DNA of 24,688 bases from Candidatus Latescibacterota bacterium (GTDB lineage: Bacteria; JAAXHH01; JACQVL01): the NCBI GenBank assembly GCA_016209865.1, contig JACQVL010000174.1:1-24688 (forward strand), read 5' to 3'. Positions 1-14,947 of this stretch are shown in pieces. Made by a program: the position numbers and the translations under genes. The notes under the pieces are model-generated. The model was not told where the DNA came from. It made no database searches and was given only the letters and a program-made list of their open reading frames with translations. Within the stretch, counting starts at the first letter, position 1. Every line of letters starts with the position of its first letter.

Positions 1-1944
1 CTCGGGCGAGAGCCGGTCCTCTCCTTCCTCGGCGAGCGTCAGCGTGATGACCGCCTGATGCTCGCCGGCCGTTCCCTCCTCCTGTAACAACGCCTGCGTC
101 GCGGTCACGTTCGCCGTCGAGAACTGCTGCCGTACTCCGGTTCCCAGGACCTGCGCGATGCGCGTTTCCACGCCGCCGATGACCGCCTCGGTGCGTTCCA
201 ACGGGGTTCCCGGCGCGAGGTCGAGGTCGATCTGCAACTGGTTTTCCGTGCTGCGGGGGATGAACTCCGCGCCGATCGTCGGCACCAGCGCAGCGGCCGC
301 GATCAACAAGAGCGACGACGCACCGATGACCAGCCACCGATGGTTCATCGCCTGGGTCAGCAGTCGTTCGTACCAGCCGACCCGCAGCCGCCCTCGCCGG
401 AAGGCGTCCGATTCGTGCGCAAACAACCGGGCGGCCGCAGCCGGGATGAACAGAAACGCCACCAGCAGCGACGACAACAGGGCGTAGGCGACGACCCACG
501 CCTGTTCCTTGAACAATTCCGCGGCAACCCCCCGGACATAGACGATCGGCAAGAAGACGACGATGGTGGTGAGCGTCGCCGCCACGATGGCAACCCCCAC
601 TTCCGCCGTCCCCTGTACGGAGGCCTGTTCTGCATCCGCGCCGAGCTGCCGGCGCCGGAAGATGTTTTCGATCACGACGATGGCATTGTCGACGAGCATG
701 CCCGCACCCAGGGCCAGGCCGCCGAGCGTCATGATGTTCAACGTCATGCCCTGAAAATACATGAGCGTAAAGGCGGCCATGATCGACAGCGGGATGGCCA
801 GGCTGACGACGAGCGTGGCGCCGATGTTTCGCAGGAACGCAAACAGCACCAACACCGCTAAAAGGCTGCCGAGCAGCGCGGTGAATTCCACTTCGCCGAC
901 CGCGTTGCTGATGAACGCGCCCTGATTGTAGATCAGCGTGAACGAAAGCATCGGCAGGTCGTTCTGCATCCGGGTGAGCGTCTCGCGTACCTGATCGGCG
1001 ACACGGACGGTGTTGTCCTCCGCCTCTTTGTACACGTAGATGCCGATGCACTCCCGGCCGTTGAGCCGCACTAAGTTCGAGCGCTCCTCGGGCGCATAGA
1101 ACACCCGGCTGACCTCCGTCAGGTAGATGGGCGCTTTCTCCGGCTCGAACACGCGGCCTTCCTCCCGCGCTCCCGCGCTCAGGCTGTCGCTTCTCCCGCC
1201 GGCCGACCGGTATCCGACGATCGTCGCGCCGATATCCGGGAGGCTGGTATACCGGCCGATGCCTTTAATCGTATACGCCGTATTCTTATGTTCGAGCGTG
1301 CCGCCCGAGGCGTTGGCGTTGGATTGCCGGAGCGCGTTCGTCACGTCGGCGGGGTTCAGGCTGTAGGCCGCCAGCCGATACTCGTCCAGTTCGACCCGCA
1401 CCTCGCGCGTGAGGCCGCCGTAGACCTGAACCCGCGCGACGCCGTCGAGCCGTTCCAGGTTGAGCTTAACCACGTTTTCCGCCACGCGCCGGAGTTCGTC
1501 GAGATCCTGGCTGTCCCGGCTGGACAACGCGTAGATCATGATGGCCTCCGCCTGCGGATCATACCGCGCGATCGTGACCTGGTCGACATCCTGGCGGGAT
1601 TCGTAGCGCGCGACTTTCTTCTGCACGTCCAGCAGCGCGAAGTCCATGTCCGCTCCCCATGCGAAGGCGACCGTGAGTTGAACGCGGCCAAGCGTGCAGA
1701 CCGTCCGGACATCCACCACCCGGCTGACGGAGCGCAACTCCCCTTCCAGTTGCCGGGCGAATCGTTCTTCCATCTCCTGAGGAGAACGCTCTCCGGCCCG
1801 GAGATCGACCACGATGCGGGGATTGTAGATGGACGGCAGCAGGTCCGTGCCCAGACGGTTCAGGGAGATCGCGCCGAGGATACTGATCCCCAGCATGATC
1901 ATGACGACCGTGACCGGATGCCGGACGGAAAAGTGCGGAAGCAT
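1..1944 (-). CDS. RND-family efflux pump, inner-membrane subunit (3' end cut by window edge)
   Basis: This is the N-terminal 648 codons of a resistance-nodulation-division transporter; the C-terminal part lies beyond position 1. It should be the proton-driven pump of a tripartite efflux complex with the adaptor and TolC genes just upstream. The protein starts MLPHFSVRHPVTVVMIMLG, the usual first membrane helix, followed by a large periplasmic porter region. A membrane-helix motif GAGMLVDNAIVVIENI lies around residues 413-428, with D419-N420 in the place of the paired proton-relay acids. This pattern fits HAE1-type (hydrophobe/amphiphile) pumps better than CzcA-type metal pumps. The ATG at 1944 has a close ribosome site (AGGTGAGG). 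A 36-nt hairpin separates it from the adaptor gene. Substrate cannot be read from the sequence. Confidence 0.95.
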   Translation of the reverse strand, partial: MLPHFSVRHPVTVVMIMLGISILGAISLNRLGTDLLPSIYNPRIVVDLRAGERSPQEMEERFARQLEGELRSVSRVVDVRTVCTLGRVQLTVAFAWGADMDFALLDVQKKVARYESRQDVDQVTIARYDPQAEAIMIYALSSRDSQDLDELRRVAENVVKLNLERLDGVARVQVYGGLTREVRVELDEYRLAAYSLNPADVTNALRQSNANASGGTLEHKNTAYTIKGIGRYTSLPDIGATIVGYRSAGGRSDSLSAGAREEGRVFEPEKAPIYLTEVSRVFYAPEERSNLVRLNGRECIGIYVYKEAEDNTVRVADQVRETLTRMQNDLPMLSFTLIYNQGAFISNAVGEVEFTALLGSLLAVLVLFAFLRNIGATLVVSLAIPLSIMAAFTLMYFQGMTLNIMTLGGLALGAGMLVDNAIVVIENIFRRRQLGADAEQASVQGTAEVGVAIVAATLTTIVVFLPIVYVRGVAAELFKEQAWVVAYALLSSLLVAFLFIPAAAARLFAHESDAFRRGRLRVGWYERLLTQAMNHRWLVIGASSLLLIAAAALVPTIGAEFIPRSTENQLQIDLDLAPGTPLERTEAVIGGVETRIAQVLGTGVRQQFSTANVTATQALLQEEGTAGEHQAVITLTLAEEGEDRLSPE

Positions 1945-1965
1945 AACCTCACCTCTACCCCCCGG

Positions 1966-2001
1966 CCCCTTCCCTTCTCCGCTTGCGGAGAGGAGAAGGG
2001 G
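1966..2001. repeat. Long imperfect hairpin between adaptor and RND genes
   Basis: The arms 1966-1982 and 1985-2001 pair over 17 positions with one mismatch and one G-T pair around the core CTCCGC-TT-GCGGAG. No T-run follows on the minus strand, so it is not a classical terminator. It resembles REP-like intergenic palindromes. It lies between the adaptor stop and the RND ribosome site, so it could affect message stability or the adaptor-to-pump ratio. Confidence 0.7.
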
Positions 2002-2008
2002 TGAGGTG

Positions 2009-3046
2009 CTACTGCAAAATCCTGACTTTCGCCTTGTCCCGGAGTGTCTCCTGGCCTTTCACCACTAAGCGTTCGCTCTCGTTCAGCCCCGACACGATCT
2101 CGACGGTGTCCCCGGTCTCGATCCCCGTCGTCACCTCTCGCATCTCCGCGCTTGCCCCCTCGACGACGAAGACCACCGGGGTATTGTTGCGCACCTGCAA
2201 CCCGGTTTTTGGGATGACGATCGCCTGTGTATGGTACTCCTGGACGATATCCGTCTTGACGAACATGCCGGGACGCAGAAGGCGGTTCGGGTTGGGCGCT
2301 TCGACCGTGACGGTAAAGGTGCGCGTCTGCGGGTCGATCGTCGGGTCGATCGTCTTGATACGCCCCTTGAAGACTTCGTCCGGAAGCGCATAATTGCGGA
2401 TCAGCACCTCTTGACCGGGACGTACCCGTCCTGCATCCGTGTTCGGCAATTTCACCGGAATCAGCACGGACGAATAATCCTTGACTGAGCAGACCTGAAA
2501 ACGGGCGGGCACGCGCGTGCCGTCGACGACCGTCTGAAGACTGGCCACGGTCCCGGAGATGGGCGCGACGATCCGGACCTTCCGGGTCTTCAGCATGGCC
2601 GTCTCGTAGTTGAGCCGCGCATCCAGCGCGGTTCGCCGCGCGATTTCCAGTTCCTTCTCCGTCACCCCCCCTTCCTTGAACAGCGCCTCCTGCTTCGTCA
2701 GCTCCCGCTGCGCATTCTCCATCGCCATCTTCTGCGACTCCACCCGGACATCCAGCAGGTATTCCGGGTTGTCGATCTCGGCCAGCAACTGCCCGGCGCG
2801 TACCGTCTGTCCCGCCGCCAGCGAGCGGACGAGGTGGAGAACCCCCTCCACTTCCGTCGTCACGTTCTCTTCCTGTTGTGCCTGGACGGTGCCGGTCGCG
2901 GCGATGTACGCGGCGATGTCCCCTCGTTGCACCGCCTCCACGTTGACCGGGATGGTCAATTCGGCGACCTGGTCGTCGTCGCGCCCCCCGCAGGCGGCGG
3001 TGAGGAGCAGCAACAACAACATCAGTGACAGGTTTCGGTCTGTCAT
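2009..3046 (-). CDS. RND efflux periplasmic adaptor lipoprotein (membrane fusion protein)
   Basis: This 345-residue protein is the adaptor that should join the RND pump to the TolC channel. A lipoprotein signal peptide is visible: a hydrophobic run at residues 8-15, then the lipobox LTAAC with C19 as the lipidation site. The order after that is typical of HlyD/AcrA-family adaptors: a half-lipoyl segment near residues 55-95, a short alpha-hairpin near 95-145, the second half-lipoyl segment with RIVAPISGTV near 155-165, then the beta-barrel and membrane-proximal domains. The ATG at 3046 lies 3 nt after the TolC stop, and an AAGGAG ribosome site lies inside the end of the TolC gene, so the two are translationally linked. 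Length is usual for the family. Confidence 0.95.
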   Translation of the reverse strand: MTDRNLSLMLLLLLLTAACGGRDDDQVAELTIPVNVEAVQRGDIAAYIAATGTVQAQQEENVTTEVEGVLHLVRSLAAGQTVRAGQLLAEIDNPEYLLDVRVESQKMAMENAQRELTKQEALFKEGGVTEKELEIARRTALDARLNYETAMLKTRKVRIVAPISGTVASLQTVVDGTRVPARFQVCSVKDYSSVLIPVKLPNTDAGRVRPGQEVLIRNYALPDEVFKGRIKTIDPTIDPQTRTFTVTVEAPNPNRLLRPGMFVKTDIVQEYHTQAIVIPKTGLQVRNNTPVVFVVEGASAEMREVTTGIETGDTVEIVSGLNESERLVVKGQETLRDKAKVRILQ

Positions 3047-3049
3047 GCG

Positions 3050-4609
3050 TTATCCGGTCTCCTTCACCTCAAGCCGTACCGGCTGATTGCGTTCAAAATC
3101 CCACAACGTCTTCCGACGAAGGTCGGCGAGGGCCTGCTGATAGTCGATGATGGCGTCGAGCGAATTTCTCCGCGCCTGCGCCAGGCGGTTCTGTTCCAGG
3201 GTCAGGTCCTGGGTATTCAGTTCGCCGTTCTGGAATTTCAAGAAACTGATGCGATAACTCTTCTCCGCCAGTTCCTGACTGCGGCGCGTGATTTCAACCC
3301 GTTGCTGCGCGGAAGAGAAATTCCGGACCGCCGCGCGAATCTCCTGCTTGATGGTATTGACGCGGTGTTGACGCGTCAGACGATCGTTCTCTAAGTTCGC
3401 GCGGGCGGCCTGGACCGAATAGGTGTTCTGCGACCAGTCCCAGAGCGGGACGCTCACCGAGAGCTGCACGCGACGGTCGTTGTTGAAATCGCTGACGATA
3501 TCCTGAAACCGGTCGCGCCGGTTGAAGAGACCATAGCTCAGAAAGAGTTCTCCGGTGATCTCCCGCTGCGCGTCGATCTCGGTGACGTTGATTTCGCCGA
3601 GTTGGATGGTGATGTCGTCGGTGCGAAGCTCGGTGCGGCGTTGCAGGGCATGACCGATCGCGGCTTCCACGGAAACCGTCACCGGGCGGTACGTCAGGCC
3701 GGTCGTGACTTCAACGGACGTTTCAAGCGGAACGCCGATGAGCACCTTGAACGCGTCTTCATTCTGCCGGAGCGAGGCTTCGCTGTTGGCGGCAGTATTC
3801 CGCGCATTGGCCAGATCCACCTCCAGACGAAGGACATCCACCTCCGCCAGCAGGCCCGCTTCTTGCTTCAGCCGGGCGACGCGATACGACTCTTCCGCCC
3901 GTGCCACTTCCTGCTGATCGAGCAGGAGCTGCTGCTGTGCCCGGTAGAAATCGTAAAAACGGGAGGTGACGTTGAACACCAGGTCAAGTTGATTGCGGGT
4001 GTAGGTTTGCAACGTGCTCTCCAGGTTCAGTTCCGCCTTGCGAAGGCCGGTCTTGAGGCGGTTGTACGTAAACAATGGCTGTCGGAACTGAAGCCGCACC
4101 TGCGTCCCGTATTGCGACGGGTTGGAAGACCCGCCGGGACCGGTCCGCACGTCGAACTGCTGAAATCGCTGAAGCGAGCCGATGAGCGAGAACAGACCGT
4201 TGGTCGCGCCGATCGGTTGATTGGCGAAGACGTCCGTCTGCACATCCATGAATTGCTGGCGATCAAACGCGAACGTGCCGCCGGGCAGCGGCGTACGCCG
4301 TTCGTTCTGCTCGAAGTTGGGCAGACTGGTGAGCTGCAATTCGCCGTTGCTCTTGAACCCGGCTTCCGCGGCCTTCAGGTTCATGCGCGAACCCATCAGC
4401 GACTGTTCGAGCCGTTTCACGTCGAAGCTCTGCGTCAGGGCGATGTCGAGGCTCTGCTCCAGCGTCAACTTCACGATTGCCTGGGCGTAGGCCGGCCCGG
4501 AGAGCAGCAACATGACGACGACCATCGCTAAAACGCGTATGACGGTGAGATACAATCGACAATCGGCAATCGACAATCGGCAATTGGCCTTACGTTTCCA
4601 TCTACGCAT
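3050..4609 (-). CDS. TolC-family outer membrane efflux protein
   Basis: This 519-residue protein is the outer-membrane channel of the tripartite efflux set. It has a hydrophobic signal core and an AYA-QA cleavage site after about residue 42, then two similar halves rich in long amphipathic helices, as in the outer membrane efflux protein family. From the ATG at 4609 the signal peptide has an unusually long basic N-region, and residues 9-18 are encoded by a CAATCGACAATCGG tandem repeat. The start at 4609 is supported by AAGGGG about 12 nt upstream, inside the end of the permease gene. A later start (TTG encoding residue 19, or M29 at 4525) would remove the repeat-encoded part. The stop is 3 nt before the adaptor start. 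The family call is firm; the start is less so. Confidence 0.93.
   Translation of the reverse strand: MRRWKRKANCRLSIADCRLYLTVIRVLAMVVVMLLLSGPAYAQAIVKLTLEQSLDIALTQSFDVKRLEQSLMGSRMNLKAAEAGFKSNGELQLTSLPNFEQNERRTPLPGGTFAFDRQQFMDVQTDVFANQPIGATNGLFSLIGSLQRFQQFDVRTGPGGSSNPSQYGTQVRLQFRQPLFTYNRLKTGLRKAELNLESTLQTYTRNQLDLVFNVTSRFYDFYRAQQQLLLDQQEVARAEESYRVARLKQEAGLLAEVDVLRLEVDLANARNTAANSEASLRQNEDAFKVLIGVPLETSVEVTTGLTYRPVTVSVEAAIGHALQRRTELRTDDITIQLGEINVTEIDAQREITGELFLSYGLFNRRDRFQDIVSDFNNDRRVQLSVSVPLWDWSQNTYSVQAARANLENDRLTRQHRVNTIKQEIRAAVRNFSSAQQRVEITRRSQELAEKSYRISFLKFQNGELNTQDLTLEQNRLAQARRNSLDAIIDYQQALADLRRKTLWDFERNQPVRLEVKETG
4553..4588. repeat. Tandem 14-bp repeat inside the TolC signal-peptide region
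   Basis: Two perfect copies of CAATCGACAATCGG (4553-4566 and 4567-4580) are followed by a partial third copy (CAATTGGC). It looks like an intergenic-type phrase repeat that is now read through as the N-terminal region of the TolC-family protein. Confidence 0.85.
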
Positions 4610-4615
4610 AGGCTT

Positions 4616-7600
4616 TTATTCCCCTTTCACGTACGTCCATCTCAACGCATCTGCCAGAATATAGCCCTTGCCTTTATCCGACAGTTCGACGACGGCAGGC
4701 CGGTCACGGTCGAACGCGTAGCGTCCTATCGGCCACCATTCGCTCTTGGTGCCCTGTGGATGAATCGTGGCTTCATGCACGCCGTCCGCCGCTTCAATCA
4801 TCAGATGATACCGGCGTTGCATGGGTTGTCTGGACGGCATGTGCAGGCTGATTTCGTAGAGTCCCGTGCGCGGAACCCGTGTTTCCCACCGGGCCGGGTA
4901 TTCCCCGTCGCTTGCCCATCGGTACCTGAACCCGAAGATATACCGGCCGTACGCCTCCGGCGCGGTCACCTGACGCCAGCTCATGATGTGCGCAGGGGGA
5001 CGGAGGTATCTGGTCTCCGCAGTCTGAGGAAAGAAAAAACCGGCGTCCTGATCATCCACGACGAAGTCGAGCGAATCCCGGATCGAGGCCACCGTGAAGA
5101 CCGTGTCGACCGGAACTCCTCTGTGAAGCCGCTGTCCTACGGTGACAGGCTTCATGATCAGCCCGCGGTTGCGCGCGAAAAAGGGGATGACCTGCACGTG
5201 TTCGGGCAGGTCGGTCGTGATGACATGCAGTTCTTTTTCCTGAAAGCTGCTCAACGCCAGAGACCGGCTGATGCGGTCCCGGCGGGTTTTGAACACCACC
5301 CGTACGAACCCGTCCCCCTCCTCGCCGTTCTGCACACGTACCTTGACCTGATAGGCGATCTGCATCCGCCCCGTGTCCCATTTCTCCGCCTCCGCGCGGA
5401 CGATGCGGTACCCCGGGAACGCGGTGCCGTGCAACCAACGCGCCGCGAACGATGCGACATCGACGGTGTTGTAGGTTTGCAGGGTATGCAAAAAATCGTC
5501 CAGACCGATGCGTTGATACGGACGTTCCGTGATGAGAGAGGCCAGGCCGGTGTGATACGCCCGCTCGCCGACCCGGTCCTGAAGCATGTCGAACACCGGG
5601 GAGGCTTTCACATCCACCATCGCCCGGTATTGCGTGCCGTCGCCGTGCGGCCGCACATCGGCGAGCGGGATGCGCTGGAGGACGGTCAACACCGAGTCGA
5701 GCTTCGTGTTGTACCGGCGGTCGAATGCCCATTCGGCATCTCCGTCGTTGCGCCGCAGCCGGTCGTAGGTGCTGAGCGCGACGTCTCGTCGGTCCGGGAA
5801 GAATGTATCCTGTATCCGTCTCTCCACCGCCTCCTGGAACTGGAGCTCCAGTCCACGGCTCAGGACCGGATGCGCCAGATCGACGCGAAAATGGTAATAA
5901 TTCCGCACGGGAGAATACAGGCTGCTGTCGCGCTGGAGCCGGTCCGGCATGAAGACGCCGAGGACGGTACGGACGAACACCTCGCGCTTGATCCGCCACG
6001 GTGTGTCGTCCCGGCCGTTTCTCCGGGCGTTTTCGGTAAACCGTTCGACGGTTTTTTTGAACCGTTTTTCCGCGAAACGCAGCTCATCGATCATGATGAC
6101 GCCCGGCTGGAGTAGGACGTTGTCCACCCCGTGACGCGTGGTATAGACCTGCATCTGAAGCGGCACTTCGACCAGCGAGAGGCGAGGATACGGATACCGC
6201 GTGCCGGTCGCGGTTTCATACAGCTCGAACAGCCGCTCCACCGTCTGAAAGCAGGTATCCGCGACGTCCGAGAACACTTCGTGGTTCAGCAGATGCCCTT
6301 TGTAGAAGAAAACCTCCACCTCAGTCTGCGGAAACCGTCTGGCAAGCCTGATATACGGGCCGGCGTTGAGCGAGAACGCCGGGGTCGGCGTGTCCACATC
6401 GAACACGGCATGGCGTTGTCCGTCTGCGATCCATTCTGTGCGTCGCATCCCCTGGGTGACGACCTGGACATCGTCGGGCGCATGGATGCGGAACGTCGCC
6501 GTGGCGAAGTTGGCTGGTCTCGGCGCCTCGTAGGGATGGCCCGCCGCCGCGCCGGGCGTCGGATACCAGCCGCTCTGCGCCGGCAGGACGACGACGCGAC
6601 CGTCGATCCAGGCAGCAATATTCCCCTTGATCCAGGGACCGTTGCCGGATTTCGGGATCACCCCCTTGTCATCCGGCAGCCGTTCCATCATGAACGCGTC
6701 GGCATCAACACGTCCCGCATAGGAGAGTGTCAGGGTATCGACCGCGCCCGGCGCCATCGGTCGATCCGCCAGGATGACGGCGACCAGATGATGCGCCTGG
6801 TGGACGGTGACGCGTCCGGCGCCGCTCCATCGGCATTCCCGGACCGCCAGCGCGCCGTTCAGCGCGAACAGTAAGGTGTCCACGGGCTGCGGATGGGGAT
6901 TGTACACCGCCAGGCGAACGGTCACTCGCAACGGTTCGGCGCTCTTCTGCATCGTGATGTCGAAATCGTAGTGCTTGATCTGAACACGCGGGGTATCGCG
7001 CCATTGCGATTGGTAGGTGAGATCGGCCTCATGAACGGCGGTCCGGGCCGTATGACGCGACCAGACGGACGCGGCGATGATGATCGCCGCCGCCAGGCTG
7101 ATCACCCCCGTCGCCTGGGTCATGCGCTGCGACCCTGTCGATTGACGAAGCCGGGGATACAGAAGAATCGTCCCGCAGACCAGAGCGCACGCCAGCAGGA
7201 CGAAGAAGGCGCGCTGCCAGAGCAGGGTGTTGATCTCTCCGAACCCGATCAGATCGCTGTAAAACAGCGGCGCCATGAAGCATCCGTAATCCAGAAACCC
7301 CTTGTACTGATGACGAACGGAGAAGAGAATGACGCCCACGTAGCCCACCGGCAGCAGAATAGCGAGCGCCTGCAGACGCAACAGGCTGATCAGAAAAAAT
7401 ACGAGCGCGGCCATGAACAGGATGGAAGGCACCGTGACCATGCCGAAATACTGGATGGCCGGCAGCAGGTTGAAATTGGCGCCGAGGAAGATGACTTTGA
7501 ATACGCGTCCTATCGCGGAGATGCCAATAAACGCCAGGTTCAGCACCACCAGCGCGCCGACGATGCCAAGGTATTTGCCGGTGACCCAGTTGGCGGTCGT

Positions 7601-7912
7601 CATCGGACGCGACAGCATGACCTGATCAAGACGCGCCTGCTGCTCCGCTTTCCTGAAATCCCCCGCTACGAAGATGATGATGATCGTCTGCACGTAGCTG
7701 AAGAAGTAGAGCGCAATCCAGGCGTCGGTTCCCTCGAGCAAGAATTCTCCATCCGGGTTGCCATCCACGATCGACGCGATGGTGGTGCCCAGCACAGCGA
7801 CGAAAGTAAAAAAGCCGCCTATGGCGGCCAGGACCCAGAACTTCGGCGTCCGGTACAGCATCATGCGCTCAGAGGCGGCGATGGTCAGGATGTATCGAAG
7901 AGATCTCAGCAT
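4616..7912 (-). CDS. ABC-2 permease fused to a degenerate M1 aminopeptidase domain and a golvesin-like C-terminal domain
   Basis: The protein is about 1098 residues from the ATG at 7912. The N-terminal part has seven predicted membrane helices (about 26-49, 65-83, 114-135, 155-178, 182-198, 233-253 and 268-285), an ABC-2 permease layout. A large domain then resembles the M1 aminopeptidase part of known permease/M1 fusions (WYPTPG, FSLNAGPYIRLARRFP, RYPYPRLSLVEVP). The HExxH zinc motif is absent: the matching place, near residue 643, reads REVFVRTVLGVF. The last ~100 residues, with WWPIGRYAFD and YILADALRW, resemble golvesin C-terminal domains, which are sugar- or wall-binding-like. The ATPase gene lies just upstream. 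An alternative ATG at 7960 would add 16 residues encoded by a palindrome. Substrate is unknown. A sensor or export role for the exterior domain is inference. Confidence 0.85.
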   Translation of the reverse strand: MLRSLRYILTIAASERMMLYRTPKFWVLAAIGGFFTFVAVLGTTIASIVDGNPDGEFLLEGTDAWIALYFFSYVQTIIIIFVAGDFRKAEQQARLDQVMLSRPMTTANWVTGKYLGIVGALVVLNLAFIGISAIGRVFKVIFLGANFNLLPAIQYFGMVTVPSILFMAALVFFLISLLRLQALAILLPVGYVGVILFSVRHQYKGFLDYGCFMAPLFYSDLIGFGEINTLLWQRAFFVLLACALVCGTILLYPRLRQSTGSQRMTQATGVISLAAAIIIAASVWSRHTARTAVHEADLTYQSQWRDTPRVQIKHYDFDITMQKSAEPLRVTVRLAVYNPHPQPVDTLLFALNGALAVRECRWSGAGRVTVHQAHHLVAVILADRPMAPGAVDTLTLSYAGRVDADAFMMERLPDDKGVIPKSGNGPWIKGNIAAWIDGRVVVLPAQSGWYPTPGAAAGHPYEAPRPANFATATFRIHAPDDVQVVTQGMRRTEWIADGQRHAVFDVDTPTPAFSLNAGPYIRLARRFPQTEVEVFFYKGHLLNHEVFSDVADTCFQTVERLFELYETATGTRYPYPRLSLVEVPLQMQVYTTRHGVDNVLLQPGVIMIDELRFAEKRFKKTVERFTENARRNGRDDTPWRIKREVFVRTVLGVFMPDRLQRDSSLYSPVRNYYHFRVDLAHPVLSRGLELQFQEAVERRIQDTFFPDRRDVALSTYDRLRRNDGDAEWAFDRRYNTKLDSVLTVLQRIPLADVRPHGDGTQYRAMVDVKASPVFDMLQDRVGERAYHTGLASLITERPYQRIGLDDFLHTLQTYNTVDVASFAARWLHGTAFPGYRIVRAEAEKWDTGRMQIAYQVKVRVQNGEEGDGFVRVVFKTRRDRISRSLALSSFQEKELHVITTDLPEHVQVIPFFARNRGLIMKPVTVGQRLHRGVPVDTVFTVASIRDSLDFVVDDQDAGFFFPQTAETRYLRPPAHIMSWRQVTAPEAYGRYIFGFRYRWASDGEYPARWETRVPRTGLYEISLHMPSRQPMQRRYHLMIEAADGVHEATIHPQGTKSEWWPIGRYAFDRDRPAVVELSDKGKGYILADALRWTYVKGE

Positions 7913-7945
7913 GCTATAAGGTTGAGGTTGATGAATGGCACGGCT

Positions 7946-7973
7946 GTAGGGGCGCAGCATTCTGCGCCCCTAC
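7946..7973. repeat. Perfect 12-bp palindrome with ATG in its loop, between ABC ATPase and permease
   Basis: The arms GTAGGGGCGCAG (7946-7957) and CTGCGCCCCTAC (7962-7973) are perfect inverted copies with a 4-nt loop. On the minus strand the loop reads AATG, which is the ATG at 7960 in frame with the permease, and the arm before it contains AGGGG at ribosome-site distance. It could be a REP-type element or a translational control hairpin. Confidence 0.8.
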
Positions 7974-7987
7974 TTTCCGTCTACGCG

Positions 7988-8857
7988 CTACAGTGCTTCC
8001 TGGGTCATATACATGTAGGCATCCTCCAGGTTCGGCGTTTCCGGCCACATGGCGAGACCGGGAACCGGGTCCCCCACCGCCCGTACGATGCGTCGCCTCT
8101 CCTGCACGATGCACGAGATGATCTGCATCCGTGCGGCCACCGCCGAGAATTCATCCTCCGTACAGGCGGTCGACCAGACATGACCGCGTGTCTGATCGAG
8201 CAGGCGCGCCGGATCGCCATGGAACACCACCTGACCGTGCGACAGCAGCGCCAGGTCTTCACAGGTGCTCGAGATGTCTCCCACGATATGCGTGCTCAGG
8301 ATGATCGCCTTGTTCCGACTGATGTTCGCTAACAGATTTCGAAACCGGATACGTTCTTCCGGGTCGAGTCCGACCGTGGGCTCGTCGACGATCAACAGCT
8401 TCGGGTCGCCGATCACCGCCTGGGCGATGCCGAGACGTCGCACCATCCCCCCCGAATACGTCCTCACTTTTCGATCCCCCACTTCGGCAAGACCGACCCG
8501 TTCCAGCGCCTCCTGCACCGCCGCCCGCCGCCGCTTTCGGGGGATGTCGTTCAGGGCGGCTATATACGCGAGGAATTCCGTCCCGGACAGTTGCGGGTAC
8601 ACCCCGAAAAACTGCGGCAGATACCCTAACGTCTGCCGGACGGCGGCACGCTGCGTGTTGATGTCCGTTCCGTTCACCAGCACCTGTCCGGCCGATGGCG
8701 TCTCCAGCGTCGCCAGAATCTTCATCAACGTGGTCTTGCCCGCGCCGTTCGGACCCAGCAGACCGAACATCCCGGTTCCGATATCGAGACTGACGTCACG
8801 CAGCGCGTGCAGAGTCTTCCCGTAGGTCTTCCAGAGATGCCGGACGGTGATCCGCAT
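7988..8857 (-). CDS. ABC transporter ATP-binding protein
   Basis: This 289-residue protein is the nucleotide-binding subunit, almost certainly partnering the fusion permease downstream. All ABC motifs are present: Walker A GPNGAGKT (35-42), Q-loop Q82, signature SGGM (135-138), Walker B LLIVDEP (154-160) and H-loop H190. The C-terminal ~70 residues form the usual extension of drug- and gliding-type exporters (CcmA/DrrA-like). The reading frame stays open upstream to 9016, but that part overlaps the neighbouring gene and has no family character. The ATG at 8857 (MRITVRHLWKTYG) is the natural start, although its ribosome site is weak. The gap to the permease start is 75 nt and holds the palindrome. 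Confidence 0.95.
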   Translation of the reverse strand: MRITVRHLWKTYGKTLHALRDVSLDIGTGMFGLLGPNGAGKTTLMKILATLETPSAGQVLVNGTDINTQRAAVRQTLGYLPQFFGVYPQLSGTEFLAYIAALNDIPRKRRRAAVQEALERVGLAEVGDRKVRTYSGGMVRRLGIAQAVIGDPKLLIVDEPTVGLDPEERIRFRNLLANISRNKAIILSTHIVGDISSTCEDLALLSHGQVVFHGDPARLLDQTRGHVWSTACTEDEFSAVAARMQIISCIVQERRRIVRAVGDPVPGLAMWPETPNLEDAYMYMTQEAL

Positions 8858-8931: not shown

Positions 8932-11007
8932 CTATGCCTGTCGGATCGTGACGAGAAGCGGGCTCATCGGCGGAATGGTCAGATGAAGCTGGAGCTGTGA
9001 CCCAGCCTGCCGCCATTCTGCCCCATCGATGAGGAGTGTCCTTCGGGGATCGATGCCAATCTGTCGCAGGTCGAGGGTCACCGCCTTCTCAAGGGGGTCG
9101 TGATCAAGGTTAAACGCGTTCAAGACGGCCCGTCCCGTCCCCGGCAGATAGTGGAGGTGGGTGAGCTCATCCACGCCCTCGAATGTTCCCCGTGTGTACA
9201 AGTCTTTCAACGTCAGGTAGACGGCCATCGCCTGCTTGTACGCCTGGTATCGTGTCTCGTTCTCCTGTGGTGAGTTGAGCCCCTTCTTCCCGCCGAGGCC
9301 GAGATGACGCACGGTCGAGGCATACCACCAGAACGAGAGGCAATGATCGTTATCGCCTTCCATCGTGAGATGGTCGTAGAGCGGGATATCATAGGCTAAG
9401 TTGTAGTAATACAGGCATCGGGCTTTGCCTGAGGTGAGGTCTTCGATCGGGTTCCACATGAACTCGAAGCCCCAGTTTTCATCGTAGGCGTGGGGGAGGC
9501 CATGCTGGTAGTACGTGGGAACATAGCGGATATACCAGGCCCAGATGGGGTCGTGCGCTTCGATGAGGACGTCGGGATGGCGTTTGTGGATCTCTTCGAT
9601 CAACCAGTAGACGGATCGTGCATGCTCATCGGGCGTCGACGGGACGGCATGGCCGTGCGCCTCGTTGTAGCAGGGCCCCCGCCATTCAAACTCGTCGAAC
9701 AGGATGAATTTGATCCCGCCCTCGACGATTGCGAGGAGTCTCTTGAGCTTCTCCTGTTTCCACGGCTCATACTCGGTGCAGACTTCCCAGATCACTCTCG
9801 TGCGCCCGGCGTAGACCTCGGAGTAGGGCACATACTCTTCTTGCTGCTCCGTTTTCTGGATGTACCATGCCGGCGGGAATTCGTTCCGGTACACCCGTCC
9901 GATCGTCCTGAAGGCGACCGTGAGACCAAACTTCTCTTTCACGTCCTCCACAAAATCGCTCACCCGGCCCAGCCGTTCCTCGTCCCAGAGGGTCGTCCCT
10001 TCACACACCTCCCACCCCGGGTCGAGGTACAACTGCTCACACCCTAATTCCGCCGCTTTCTGACACTCGTAGAACAACACGTCCCTGGTATAGTGTGTGA
10101 ACAGTTGTTCCCGGTCGGAGTGATACCATCCCACGTCGAAGAGCTCATTCCAGTGTACGGGAGGGTTGTAGTTCGGGGGAAGGCCGTGTCCGTGTTCGTT
10201 CATGAATGCTTTAAACACCCGGTAGCCTTCCCGCCATCCCCCTGTCAGGAGGATGTATCGCGTCGTGCCGAACTGGATCGTACAGCCGGGTTCCAGCGTC
10301 CGGGCCGCAGTGGGTTCTCCGTACAGGCAGAGGCCGACGCCACCGAAGGTGAGACACTCCTCTTCGTCCACATCCACCATAGAATACTCGATCATTTCCT
10401 GATTGTATTTGATGACTAACAGTCCTTCCGATTCATCCGTCCAGACCCACCCCTCGGATCGCCCCTTATCGGCTCCCCATCGTTTCAGAGAGGCAATCCA
10501 GGGAGGAATCCAGTCGGAGTCCTGAATCTGTCGCTTCAGCAGGTCATCCACGTCGTAATCGTGCACTTTCCCGTCAACCTGGATGCGGTACGGGACGGCC
10601 ACGAGATGGAATCCCGCTGAGAGGTCCGTCAGGCGCTTCCTGAAGGCACAGACGATGTCGTCGATCTGGATCGTCCGCTCCGTCGCGTTGGTGAGGGTGA
10701 TCGTCTCCTCCAGGTAGGGCTGATGGGGAGGCGCCGAGAACACGTGCTCGACCCGTATGCCGCCGGGCGTGACGCCGTGTAGGACGAGCCGTTCTGTGCC
10801 GTCTGCCCCTCGTGCTCGATGGTGGGCGGTATAGGTGAGGCCGGATGTGTCCCCGGCCCCGTTCACCGCGATCCGGTACTGATACTCCATGTCGGCATAG
10901 CGACGGCCTGACCGTGTATTGATCAGGCTGTGGGGCACGATCCGGTCATCGAGACGGACGTGTACCTCAAGACTGGCATTGCCTAATCTTTCCTCTGTCT
11001 CGACCAT
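8932..11007 (-). CDS. GH36/GH27-like (clan GH-D type) glycoside hydrolase candidate, cytoplasmic
   Basis: This 691-residue protein has the layout of GH36 enzymes: an N-terminal beta-sandwich (about 1-270), a TIM-barrel (about 285-590) and a small C-terminal beta domain. In the barrel, YLDPGWEV around D329 resembles the DDGW strand of alpha-galactosidases. FILFDEFEWRGPC offers D438 as candidate nucleophile, and IEAHDPIWAW offers D486 as candidate acid. The 48-residue spacing is somewhat shorter than the roughly 60 of known GH27/GH36 enzymes. No signal peptide is visible, so a cytoplasmic role is likely. The ATG at 11007 has a GAGGGAAG ribosome site and follows the upstream stop by 30 nt. The substrate cannot be assigned and the family call rests on motif resemblance. 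It may be an unclassified relative. Confidence 0.7.
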   Translation of the reverse strand: MVETEERLGNASLEVHVRLDDRIVPHSLINTRSGRRYADMEYQYRIAVNGAGDTSGLTYTAHHRARGADGTERLVLHGVTPGGIRVEHVFSAPPHQPYLEETITLTNATERTIQIDDIVCAFRKRLTDLSAGFHLVAVPYRIQVDGKVHDYDVDDLLKRQIQDSDWIPPWIASLKRWGADKGRSEGWVWTDESEGLLVIKYNQEMIEYSMVDVDEEECLTFGGVGLCLYGEPTAARTLEPGCTIQFGTTRYILLTGGWREGYRVFKAFMNEHGHGLPPNYNPPVHWNELFDVGWYHSDREQLFTHYTRDVLFYECQKAAELGCEQLYLDPGWEVCEGTTLWDEERLGRVSDFVEDVKEKFGLTVAFRTIGRVYRNEFPPAWYIQKTEQQEEYVPYSEVYAGRTRVIWEVCTEYEPWKQEKLKRLLAIVEGGIKFILFDEFEWRGPCYNEAHGHAVPSTPDEHARSVYWLIEEIHKRHPDVLIEAHDPIWAWYIRYVPTYYQHGLPHAYDENWGFEFMWNPIEDLTSGKARCLYYYNLAYDIPLYDHLTMEGDNDHCLSFWWYASTVRHLGLGGKKGLNSPQENETRYQAYKQAMAVYLTLKDLYTRGTFEGVDELTHLHYLPGTGRAVLNAFNLDHDPLEKAVTLDLRQIGIDPRRTLLIDGAEWRQAGSQLQLHLTIPPMSPLLVTIRQA

Positions 11008-11037
11008 AGACTTCCCTCGAGGTTTTCATTCCGCAAT

Positions 11038-12945
11038 CTATCGTCCCGCCAGCCATCCGATCAGCCCACCGAAACACGCCCGGTGGTACTGGCCCCAGCC
11101 GTCCCACACCGCGTTGCGATACCCCAGTCCCCACGCCGGACGGCTCGCCATCGCGGCGACTCGACCGTCGCCCGCGTGTGCGACCGCCACGGCAGGATGA
11201 CGGTCGGGAGAGGTGAACCGGAGGGTCACGATCGCGCCCGGCCGGGCTGCCGACGGGACCCACCAGCCGATCCTGACGTTGGTATCGGGATGCAGCATCA
11301 GCCGGTCGGCGGTCACATGGGGCTGTCCGGCATGGAGGCTCAGGACAGGCTCTACCCGTTGGAGGGTGCCGTCCTGGATGGGTTGCAACGGAACCAGATC
11401 GCCCAATGCCTGTGCCAGCGTCCCGAACGGGGCGCAGAGCAACAGCCCGCCGCCCGCTTCGACCCAGCACCGGAGGTCGTCACTGCGGTCGTGCGGCCAG
11501 GCGTTCCCGACAACACAGATGACCCGATAGTCCGAGAGGATGGGGGGCGCCTGAACCCCAGGACCTGACCATGTGACGGTGAACCCGCACTGGACGCCGT
11601 GATCGGACAGATAGCGCCCGTCCGCTTCCGCATGATCGAGCGCCGGATCGACGGCGACGTAGACCGTGATGCCCGTCCCGTCAAACGGCAAGTCGGCGGT
11701 CGGTCGCCGGGACGCGACCGGCACGGTCTCCGTGGTATGGAGGATGACTCGCCCCTGTTCCTCGTACACCGCGTCTAAGGCGACATAGTCCCCGGTCGCC
11801 GGGAGCGTCAGCGTGACCAACAACGGTTCACCGGGCCGTAAGACACCTCTGTTCTCCGCAGCCTGGTGCGCCTGTCCTCCCTGATCGAAGAGATGGACAC
11901 GCACCCGTCCCCGTCGCCGGCTTGCCGCATGAACGCCGACGAGAACCTCATGGCCGTCCTCCGGGCGATGAACCGTCAGACCGCAGTCTTCCCCTGCCGT
12001 GACGAAATGTTTCCCCCCGACGCCTAACGTCACATCGAACCCCCAGACGGCGGTCTCGCCAGGCGGCACCTCCACGTGATTGATCGCTTGCGGGGTAAAC
12101 GCTCTCCATCCGTGCCAGAACAGACCGCGATACGGGTCGAACCGGCCGCGCAGAAGATAGAACTCGTCCCCATCGCCAGGGCCGAGGGCATACCACCAGC
12201 CGGGGCCGTCCAGGTCCCAGACGATCCGGTCGACCACCATCTCTGTCGAGTCAGCGGTGGCACAGATCGGACTCGGTTCTTTCAGGATCGACCGAAGGCG
12301 AGTCGTCCCGTAGCTGATCCATGCGCGTTTGGGCGCGACCAGCCAGGACGAGTGGGGGGGCGTCCCGCTGACATGGAACGAATGGATATCCCAGTCTGAG
12401 GCGATCGTCTGGTTCCCGGTATTCTGCCAGACGACGTCCATCGCAAACCAGGCCGCATCCGGTCTGAACCGGTAGCGTTTGTCGTACACGAAGCTGTAGC
12501 CGCCTAAATCATTGGCCTCTTGACGAAAGACGACGACCGTTTCCGCGGCCTGTTGTTCGGTAAACCATCGCCACGGCAACGGGTCGAGCCGGGTCTGATC
12601 CCCCTGCTTCGTGAACACACCGACCCCCATCTTGAGCCAGCGTGTTGTTCCGTCGTGCGAGTCGATCGGAAACGCGGCGAACAACTCATCGGGGAGACCG
12701 AACGGACGATTGTCTTCCGGGTCGATCATCGTGATCATGAAATACTCGCGACCGGTTGGTTGATAGATCAGTGACTGCAGCCGGCCGCCCCATGACCACC
12801 GCCGTCCGTACGTGACTTCGCCTAAGTGTTCCGGGATGCGGATAACAGCCCGCACCCAGGGGTTGGTGACGATCACCTCACGGTCGCCGTCCTGATCGAT
12901 GTCGATGAAGTCGACCTGTACGCGTGCTCTGTTACGGGGTGACAC
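11038..12945 (-). CDS. Mutarotase-like beta-sandwich protein with C-terminal glutamine-amidotransferase-like domain (function unknown)
   Basis: This 635-residue protein is not one I can name. The first ~310 residues, with WGGRLQSLIYQPTGREY near 51-67, look like the galactose-mutarotase or beta-supersandwich fold common in carbohydrate enzymes. A middle beta-rich segment follows. The last ~220 residues contain DYRVICVVGNAW and WVEAGGGLLLCAPFGTLA, typical of the class-I amidotransferase-like domain that also occurs in GH42 beta-galactosidases. No amidotransferase Cys-His-Glu triad was recognised, so a structural role is more likely. The start is GTG at 12945 with GGGAGG 7 nt upstream. It overlaps the upstream glycosidase by 14 nt, implying coupled translation. 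No signal peptide is seen. A role on the same carbohydrate as its neighbours is inferred. Confidence 0.65.
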   Translation of the reverse strand: MSPRNRARVQVDFIDIDQDGDREVIVTNPWVRAVIRIPEHLGEVTYGRRWSWGGRLQSLIYQPTGREYFMITMIDPEDNRPFGLPDELFAAFPIDSHDGTTRWLKMGVGVFTKQGDQTRLDPLPWRWFTEQQAAETVVVFRQEANDLGGYSFVYDKRYRFRPDAAWFAMDVVWQNTGNQTIASDWDIHSFHVSGTPPHSSWLVAPKRAWISYGTTRLRSILKEPSPICATADSTEMVVDRIVWDLDGPGWWYALGPGDGDEFYLLRGRFDPYRGLFWHGWRAFTPQAINHVEVPPGETAVWGFDVTLGVGGKHFVTAGEDCGLTVHRPEDGHEVLVGVHAASRRRGRVRVHLFDQGGQAHQAAENRGVLRPGEPLLVTLTLPATGDYVALDAVYEEQGRVILHTTETVPVASRRPTADLPFDGTGITVYVAVDPALDHAEADGRYLSDHGVQCGFTVTWSGPGVQAPPILSDYRVICVVGNAWPHDRSDDLRCWVEAGGGLLLCAPFGTLAQALGDLVPLQPIQDGTLQRVEPVLSLHAGQPHVTADRLMLHPDTNVRIGWWVPSAARPGAIVTLRFTSPDRHPAVAVAHAGDGRVAAMASRPAWGLGYRNAVWDGWGQYHRACFGGLIGWLAGR

Positions 12946-14947
12946 CGCTTCGCCTCCCGTTGTCCAGCCTCAGCACCACCGGATAGTCTTTGATGAGCAT
13001 GCCCGTCAGCGTCGTGTCCGCGCCTTGGATCGAGACCTCCAGCTCCTGCTCAACGCCGTTCAGCGTATCGATCCCGGCGGCGCGTTCGCACTGGAGACCG
13101 GGAAGCACGACATCCGCGCGAATGTCGGGGAACTGGTCACCGCCCGTCCCCGCCGCCCACAGCGCCACGAGCAGCGTCCCGTCGGGCAGAGTAAAGGAGA
13201 ACACGTCGACCTCTTTCTCGGTGTGACGCACCTCGACGGCCAGGTCGGTCGGGGCTGCCTCTTCAAACACCGTGGAGAGGGTGCGCAGCACGTAATACGC
13301 CGGTTGGGGTTGCATCGGGTTGAGCGGATCGGCGGAGAACGTGTTGCGGAACAGACCCACATCCCAGTCGATAAGCTGATCCTGCCACGTCTCATTCCAG
13401 AACGCGGGCATGTCGAGCCAGGCATGGGTGATCATCAATCGAGCGAGATACTTGGCTTTCAGGAGTTCAGAGACGACCAGCGGGCGCCGCTCCTCGGGAA
13501 TCGCCTGGGGATACGGGGCGGACCAGGTCAGTTCGGTCCCCATGCAGGTTCCCTGGAATCCGTGGGCGCGGGCCCGCTGTTTCAGGGCCTGGACATCGGC
13601 GACATACCGGCGATACGCCGGCGTTTCTGGATCGGCCTGGTAGAACGGGTGCCAGGCCAGGACATCGACCAGCGGCCCTATGCCTTCCTCCAGGCAGGTG
13701 TCGAAAAACACCTGGGCGAGCTGGCCGGGCGACCCCAACACGATCTTCGCCGTCGGGTGCTCCGACCGGATGATCGGGACGACTTCCCGGACCAACTGGC
13801 AGTACTCCCGGTACCCATCGGCCAGCGGTCGGTCGGGCCGATAGGCGTACGAATCGGTCTCGTTGTAGAGTTCATAATACGTGATGCGATCCCGGAAGTG
13901 CCGCACCATGAAGCGGACGTAATTCTTGTACCCCTCCAGCAGCTCCGGACTCTCGGTCGGTGCGTGCGGGAGCGAATCATGAAATTCCCACATCGTCTTC
14001 GGCCTCTTTCGCGGAAAGTCGGGCGCGTACAGCCGGTTCGTGTACGCCAGGCACAGCACAATCTCGACGCCGTTCGAGATCGTCTCAGTGACACACTCAT
14101 CCGCACGGGGATCGATCACATACTTCCCCTTTTCCCGTTCCACATGATGCCAGTTGAGGACATCATCCCAGTAGCCAATCCTCACCCACTTCAGACCCAG
14201 ATCGTAATGCACCGCCCACAGATTTTCGTGGAGGAGCCGCTCGTCCCCGTAGCCATAATTCGTCGAGGAGACGGTGACCCCAGCGCCTCGTGACGCGAGC
14301 GCGACGTTCTCCCCCTGGTCATCGATGACCTGAACCTCGGCTAAGGAAAAGCACCGGTTAAAATGATCCACGCGCTGGGGAAAGCGCTTGCCGATGATCC
14401 ACACCTGCTTGACCGGCCGTGGGGTGAAGGCAAACGCCTGCGGCGTGGGCGTGGCGGGCGGGACCGCGTGGAGGTTCTCGTAGACGGTCTCCCAGTGCCA
14501 GGCATCCTGGCTCACGTTGATGGTCAACTCTTCTGGCCAGCCTACGTTGTCGTTGCGCGGCACGAGGACAACCGCGTTGGCCCTGGTTTCGCAGGCCAGG
14601 TCGATTCTGATCCACACCGGTTCCACATCCGGTTGAATCTGCCCCCGACTGCACCAGTAGGTCTCCGGGTCGCCATCGATGAGATGGATGCTCAAAAAGG
14701 GCTGCTCATCCATCAGAGGGCTCCGGGGCATCCGGGGCGGCGTGGCGCCCATCTTGTTTTCTCGAATCTCCCACGATTTTTTGGGATGGATCTTTGTCTT
14801 CGGCCTGGTATTGCCGTCCTGAAACTGCACGCCCGGCTGGAAATCCGGGCTGACGCCGTAGATGAAGGTGTCCCCAAACCCATAGACGGGCGCCCCGTGG
14901 CACTCCGCTCTGACCGGCTGTGATCGTGAAAAGACTGTGGGATCCAT
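12932..14947 (-). CDS. GH39-like (clan GH-A) glycoside hydrolase with N-terminal F5/8C-like domain
   Basis: This 671-residue protein has an F5/8-type C (discoidin, CBM32-like) domain at about residues 85-215, with DGDPETYWCSRG near its start. A TIM-barrel typical of clan GH-A follows. The acid/base candidate is E363 in YYELYNETD after strand 4, and the nucleophile candidate is E472 in GTELTWS. The 109-residue gap between them and the local context look most like GH39. A C-terminal beta domain follows from about residue 560. No signal peptide is visible. The ATG at 14947 has a clear AAGGAGAG ribosome site. It follows the methyltransferase by 21 nt and overlaps the next gene by 14 nt. GH39 (beta-xylosidase or iduronidase type) is the best guess, but the exact family and substrate are open. 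Confidence 0.75.
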   Translation of the reverse strand: MDPTVFSRSQPVRAECHGAPVYGFGDTFIYGVSPDFQPGVQFQDGNTRPKTKIHPKKSWEIRENKMGATPPRMPRSPLMDEQPFLSIHLIDGDPETYWCSRGQIQPDVEPVWIRIDLACETRANAVVLVPRNDNVGWPEELTINVSQDAWHWETVYENLHAVPPATPTPQAFAFTPRPVKQVWIIGKRFPQRVDHFNRCFSLAEVQVIDDQGENVALASRGAGVTVSSTNYGYGDERLLHENLWAVHYDLGLKWVRIGYWDDVLNWHHVEREKGKYVIDPRADECVTETISNGVEIVLCLAYTNRLYAPDFPRKRPKTMWEFHDSLPHAPTESPELLEGYKNYVRFMVRHFRDRITYYELYNETDSYAYRPDRPLADGYREYCQLVREVVPIIRSEHPTAKIVLGSPGQLAQVFFDTCLEEGIGPLVDVLAWHPFYQADPETPAYRRYVADVQALKQRARAHGFQGTCMGTELTWSAPYPQAIPEERRPLVVSELLKAKYLARLMITHAWLDMPAFWNETWQDQLIDWDVGLFRNTFSADPLNPMQPQPAYYVLRTLSTVFEEAAPTDLAVEVRHTEKEVDVFSFTLPDGTLLVALWAAGTGGDQFPDIRADVVLPGLQCERAAGIDTLNGVEQELEVSIQGADTTLTGMLIKDYPVVLRLDNGRRSGVTP

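Follow-up and report, generated by a model that had tools for sequence, protein, structure and literature searches.

What does an ABC transporter do with a peptidase-like domain that lacks its zinc-binding motif, and in whose company does it do so? The question is raised by a contig assigned to Candidatus Latescibacterota (JACQVL010000174.1; 24,688 nucleotides, referred to here as ‘the window’). An earlier note placed at positions 4616-8857 an ABC ATPase and a permease, the latter with seven N-terminal membrane helices, an M1-aminopeptidase-like exterior domain without HExxH and a golvesin-like C-terminal segment, and proposed that the pair may detect or handle peptides or glycans at the cell surface. 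The coordinates were right: the interval holds two adjoining minus-strand genes, the ATPase and then the permease, with 27 bp between them (Table 1). The neighbouring genes, and the distribution of their relatives, lead to a different picture of what the pair belongs to.

Table 1. Positions of the module's genes and protein domains in the window
Feature	Position	Strand	Basis or remark
Stand-alone ABC ATPase (NBD1), DrrA/GldA-like	7988..8857	-	Pfam ABC_tran 1.1e-31
ABC-2 permease A with pseudo-M1 ectodomain and golvesin tail	4616..7960	-	1114 aa
Seven-helix membrane part, permease residues 43-300	7061..7834	-	family-averaged hydropathy; weak ABC2_membrane matches
Pseudo-M1 ectodomain, residues about 325-930, without HExxH	5171..6988	-	hhalign; dN/dS
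Golvesin_C tail, residues 994-1108	4637..4981	-	Pfam E 1.8e-13
TolC-like outer membrane channel	3050..4609	-	Pfam OEP 2.5e-46; 6 bp after permease
RND-type periplasmic adaptor (MFP)	2009..3046	-	TIGR01730 204.9 bits, above cutoff
RND pump A	1..1944	-	cut by contig end, 648 of about 1040 aa

The permease and its peptidase-like ectodomain

The seven N-terminal helices attributed to the permease coincide with seven peaks in the hydropathy averaged over its family (residues 43-61, 82-100, 133-154, 173-191, 198-216, 251-269 and 282-300), and with that number of helices the ectodomain that follows helix 7 is expected to lie in the periplasm. Pfam matches to ABC2_membrane are weak in relatives and below cutoff in the window permease; taken with the helix count and the adjoining ATPase, they identify an ABC-2 type ABC exporter, which is defined by a six-helix ABC-2 permease and its cognate ATPase. 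The ATPase itself displays the full set of motifs (Walker A GPNGAGKTT, signature YSGGM, Walker B LLIVDEPT and H-loop STH), and its best NCBIfam match is DrrA (200 bits, under the DrrA cutoff).

The M1 Pfam model matches the window permease weakly (E 6e-5, 23.1 bits, under the 27.7 cutoff). When 36 family members were compared by hhalign with 11 HExxH-bearing M1 proteins, the two profiles aligned with a probability of 99.95 and an E of 1.5e-38 across profile columns 320-924, and the family also aligned (E 2.7e-28) with five ABC/M1 fusions that carry HExxH; the span of the alignment extends M1 homology across the whole ectodomain, beyond the 65 residues matched by Pfam. Judged from these profiles, the ectodomain is homologous to M1 peptidases over their N-terminal and catalytic domains, and an M1 fold is probable; AlphaFold2 models of the ectodomain and of the full-length protein, built from two sequences only, gave pLDDT values of 34.6 and 34.5. 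An M1-like exterior domain was thus correctly recognized, and so was the missing motif: HExxH is absent anywhere along the 1,114 residues of the window permease. The site from which it was lost differs by aligner, falling at TVLGVFMPDRL with hhalign (close to the REVFVRTVLGVF named in the earlier note) and nearer VRNYYHFRVDL with MAFFT, and no HExxH is found in either register.

The C-terminal segment is, as proposed, golvesin-like: the Golvesin_C model (PF25275) matches it with 51.1 bits against a curated cutoff of 31.6, and does so at E <= 0.01 in all 36 scanned permeases of the same subtype (‘subtype I’, below). The tail also matches, weakly (E 0.003), the C-terminal end of a Paenibacillus xanthan lyase (6f2p). 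Golvesin-type domains are found in proven lectins, Cbeg4 and Cbeg5 (PMC9166713), which agrees with the suggestion that this is a glycan-linked type of domain, and in xanthan lyase (PMC10881899).

The layout as a whole is, by comparison with relatives, not a product of chance. The nearest relative (L002, from a Ca. Latescibacterota MAG) is 59% identical and has the same layout, and whole-genome searches recovered full-length relatives in the window's phylum and in five more, mutually distinct phyla (centred on genomes G205, G070, G159, G158 and G154). Searches of viral contigs found no relative of the permease. About 55 full-length permeases of subtype I all lack HExxH, so that the intact close homologues that would have pointed to a single damaged gene were not encountered, and the M1 Pfam model still matches 27 of the 36 scanned. 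Between close permease pairs, dN/dS is 0.07-0.22 for the pseudo-M1 domain and 0.04-0.23 for the former catalytic core. Purifying selection on the domain is strong, and the family has kept it; with relatives equally devoid of HExxH and dN/dS well below 1, a single damaged gene is ruled out. A peptidase centre that is gone family-wide, in a domain so strongly conserved, argues for a non-catalytic role. To this extent the proposal that the peptidase had become a binding or sensing module stands; its other part, the handling of peptides, received no specific support.

A second subtype (‘subtype II’, in the phylum of G158) separates two features that might have been taken for one event. Its permeases align with those of subtype I over 814 columns (E 2.4e-50), and all nine lack HExxH; a YLHExIW stretch may be a remnant of the motif. 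They end ahead of the position at which the golvesin tail begins, so the tail is dispensable and was unnecessary for the loss of HExxH. Loss of the motif and gain of the tail, which had been expected possibly to go together, are therefore untied, and their origin as a single event is ruled out.

A conserved ABC-RND-TolC module

The supposition of an isolated ATPase/permease pair did not survive inspection of the neighbourhood, in which the two genes are one part of a conserved module. The genes of the window run ATPase, permease, TolC, adaptor and RND, spaced 3 to 64 bp apart, and the contig breaks off inside the RND gene; an RND pump, an RND-type adaptor and TolC in one operon constitute an RND tripartite efflux system. 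Elsewhere in this genome, contig C124 carries at positions 1-2575 part of a fusion between an RND protein and an ABC ATPase, in one open frame of 858 aa that is 56% identical to residues 735-1579 of the fusion in G205 and includes the linker and C-terminus, with a small ABC-2 permease directly behind it (about 2518-3330). We infer that the window contig (C122) adjoins this one; the gap would contain the remainder of RND A and the beginning of the fusion.

Among relatives, the order in subtype I is ABC ATPase, permease with pseudo-M1 and golvesin domains, TolC, adaptor, RND, RND-ATPase fusion and small ABC-2 permease. Around the permease, the ATPase lies upstream in 47 of 49 loci, and TolC (37/45), the adaptor (40/41) and the RND gene (30/32) occupy their conserved positions in most loci; in one lineage no TolC adjoining the module was detected. 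Of 30 fusions, 27 are followed by the small permease, which is about 250 aa long. In the three tested copies from subtype I, Pfam recognizes it weakly or not at all, so that its assignment there depends on an iterated profile search; the match is clear in subtype II. In that subtype the genes run adaptor, ATPase, small ABC-2 permease, RND, permease/pseudo-M1, RND-ATPase fusion and TolC, which places the small permease between the ATPase and RND. Seven parts thus travel together: NBD1, permease A (with pseudo-M1 and with or without golvesin), permease B, RND A, RND B with its fused NBD2, the adaptor and TolC.

The fusion is a second RND protein of approximately 1,580 aa, usually encoded behind the RND gene and present in most loci, whose C-terminus is an ABC ATPase; in four fusions examined with Pfam, a full ACR_tran (approximately residues 1-1015) and a full ABC_tran (approximately 1305-1450) lie in one open frame. 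The ATPase is itself split, such that its first strand (IRIKNLTKIYG) is followed by some 200 residues with membrane helices and only then by the Walker A region. That membrane linker was considered as a substitute for a second ABC permease, an idea dropped once the fusions proved to be followed by a small ABC-2 permease. The fused ATPase domains all group together in one clade (support 0.964), which indicates a single origin of the fusion, before the subtypes split; the stand-alone ATPases of subtype I form another (support 0.937), but for one sequence. On viral contigs, matches to the fusion NBD were confined to the ABC-ATPase part.

Permease and fusion also tend to be found together across genomes. 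In the phylum of G205, where 43 of 82 genomes have a permease match, 39 carry both the permease and the fusion linker, 4 the permease only, 2 the fusion only and 37 neither (Fisher p 4e-16, with shared ancestry ignored), and several families there mix members that carry both with members that carry neither. In a wide sample the linker occurred in 9 of 384 genomes, all within permease-bearing phyla. Two exceptions can be named: a search for the fusion in G001 (a 97%-complete assembly that has the ATPase and, at a contig end, the permease) found none, and the permease was not detected in G213, which has the fusion. Conserved clustering of this kind is functional linkage, as distinct from a physical complex.

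Motif searches and alignment with MdtB indicate that neither RND protein in the sampled loci has the complete AcrB-type proton relay (D407, D408, K940): in both RND A and RND B, TM4 reads D-N (or D-S) where AcrB and MdtB have D-D, and TM10 has N in place of Lys. These changes leave the usual relay incomplete, although the pumps may still use protons.

Possible modes of action

Our best reading, held at about even confidence, is that the module is a heteromeric ABC exporter whose genes are linked to those of an RND tripartite efflux system and one of whose subunits is covalently fused to that system, the whole working much as DrrABC-MmpL7 does. Permeases A and B and the two ATPase domains, NBD1 and NBD2, would form one ABC transporter, which NBD2, as the C-terminus of RND B, would anchor to the RND trimer. 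The ABC part would lift an amphiphilic or glycosylated cargo out of the inner membrane; the pseudo-M1 cleft, formerly a peptide-binding groove, would hold or dock that cargo in the periplasm; the golvesin tail, where present, would bind a glycan carried by the cargo or by the wall; and the RND pumps, adaptor and TolC would take the cargo outward. Both the substrate and the physical coupling of ABC to RND are what we infer from this arrangement. The bolder form of the idea, in which the module represents an undescribed class of envelope-spanning exporter, with ABC and RND parts working as one machine locked together by the RND-ATPase fusion (its NBD interrupted by a membrane insert), the dead M1 domain serving for periplasmic hand-over and ATP hydrolysis driving or gating RND export, is held at a little under even confidence.

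The strongest competitor, although rather unlikely, is an ordinary efflux island, in which the ABC exporter and the RND/TolC pump are each complete, share their regulation and a job in envelope stress or detoxification, and act in parallel, the fused NBD serving the ABC transporter alone with the RND domain as its passenger or anchor. Every part does come from a known transporter family, and clustering alone does not demonstrate contact; against this, the fusion arose once and has been kept in at least six phyla, the genes stay together in two different orders, and genomes tend to have all of the parts or none. The ABC-2 fold is used by floppases and exporters, and that bears on another alternative, which we regard as improbable: a non-transporting ABC system of the mechanotransmission kind (like MacB, FtsEX or LolCDE), in which ATP hydrolysis would move the pseudo-M1/golvesin ectodomain so that a cargo from the periplasm or the membrane is extracted or pushed into the RND/TolC channel, with nothing passing across the inner membrane through the permease. 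The very large periplasmic domain and the presence of tripartite partners would suit such a device, but the transmembrane region belongs to the ABC-2 type and is accompanied by another ABC-2 subunit, which sets it apart from the four-helix type of MacB. The original view, in which the ABC pair stands alone and its pseudo-peptidase serves to sense or bind peptides or glycans at the surface, agrees with the missing zinc motif and the golvesin tail, yet is now very improbable, weakened by neighbourhood data in which the permease is almost never without its adaptor, RND and fusion partners.

Comparison with known systems

The components are known; their combination appears to be new. No paper was found on ABC permease/M1 fusions, on a pseudo-M1 domain with an ABC permease or on RND-ABC ATPase fusions in the literature searched, outside of which lie most subscription journals and preprints, and the portions of a 2021 Chem Rev review of tripartite systems reached by a term search contain no RND-ABC fusion. 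Among tripartite systems, ABC and RND exporters count as distinct classes of energisation. If the reading of one machine is true, a conserved natural ABC-RND fusion in at least six phyla would offer direct access to the ways in which primary energy (ATP) and secondary energy (protons) can be combined, and an odd dead peptidase, mostly in uncultured lineages, would become a candidate periplasmic hand-over domain.

Several familiar systems share some of these parts. The ABC-2 permease/M1 fusions that retain the motif (L108, L109, L110, L113 and L115) likewise join ABC-2 helices to an M1 ectodomain beside an ABC ATPase, but they have 11-14 helices in two sets, an intact HE[VIA]AH and no golvesin domain, and are linked neither to a TolC/RND operon nor to an RND-ATPase fusion. 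MacAB-TolC also combines an ABC transporter with an adaptor and TolC; its transporter has the MacB-type fold rather than the ABC-2 type seen here, and it has neither an RND protein nor an M1 domain. AcrAB-TolC and MdtABC resemble the module in having RND, adaptor and TolC in one operon, with two unlike RND subunits as in MdtBC, and MdtB is the best PDB match for both RND proteins; the present module differs in including an ABC transporter, in the ABC ATPase fused to one RND protein and in its TM4/TM10 relay residues.

The closest functional precedent is DrrABC-MmpL7, a comparison that is one of co-occurrence here and not a claim of membership. In Mycobacterium, MmpL7 takes part in PDIM export together with the ABC transporter DrrABC, is without a canonical proton relay and has been proposed as a scaffold for DrrABC (PMC11539658). 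The likeness has three sides: an ABC-2 transporter with two permeases (DrrB and DrrC) and an RND protein are both required for one export route; in MmpL7 the canonical relay is missing, as it is incomplete in RND A and B of the sampled loci; and DrrA is the family that the window ATPase matches best. There are also differences. The RND protein there is an MmpL without an NBD fusion, whereas here one NBD is fused to RND, and the mycobacterial system has no TolC, no RND-type adaptor, no M1/golvesin ectodomain and no two distinct NBDs. Were the two parts of the present module indeed to work as one, the arrangement would bear on why mycobacteria need both DrrABC and MmpL7 for a single lipid.

RND transporter and ABC ATPase in one frame

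In loci L122, L137 and L126, in further loci and in another contig of the window's own genome (L190), the RND transporter and an ABC ATPase are joined in a single open frame, the ATPase of which carries approximately 200 residues with membrane helices between its first strand and Walker A. Immediately after this fusion, in 27 of 30 loci, lies a small ABC-2 permease of six helices.

Coordinates of the module genes and of the genes upstream of it
Feature	Locus	Position	Strand	Remark
RND-ATPase fusion	L122	942-5711		
RND-ATPase fusion	L137	2087-6850		
RND-ATPase fusion	L126	1917-6644		
RND-ATPase fusion	L190 (G000:C124)	2-2575		window's own genome
Small ABC-2 permease	L190	about 2518-3330		after fusion
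Small ABC-2 permease	L122	5725-6501		after fusion
Upstream gene, 691 aa	window	within 8932-14947	minus	no Pfam match
Upstream gene, 635 aa	window	within 8932-14947	minus	weak DUF4350/FG-GAP
Upstream gene, 671 aa	window	within 8932-14947	minus	F5/8 type C domain

Surroundings of the module

Three large genes lie upstream of the module in the window, the first of them (691 aa) ending 74 bp before the ATPase start; relatives of them were not seen beside the module at other loci. The N-terminus of the window's TolC (about 4609-4540) reads ANCRLSIADCRL, as is typical of small genomic repeats when translated, and its real start may therefore lie downstream of the called one. Separately, genome G444 (phylum of G158) holds an expansion of golvesin domains, with approximately 17 separate matches, many in long proteins.

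Fusions that retain HExxH

The ABC-2/M1 fusions that bear HExxH (L108, L109, L110, L113 and L115) are devoid of golvesin, and a literature search likewise found no paper on this group. An ATPase gene adjoins each, and their predicted helices, 11-14 in number, fall into two sets.
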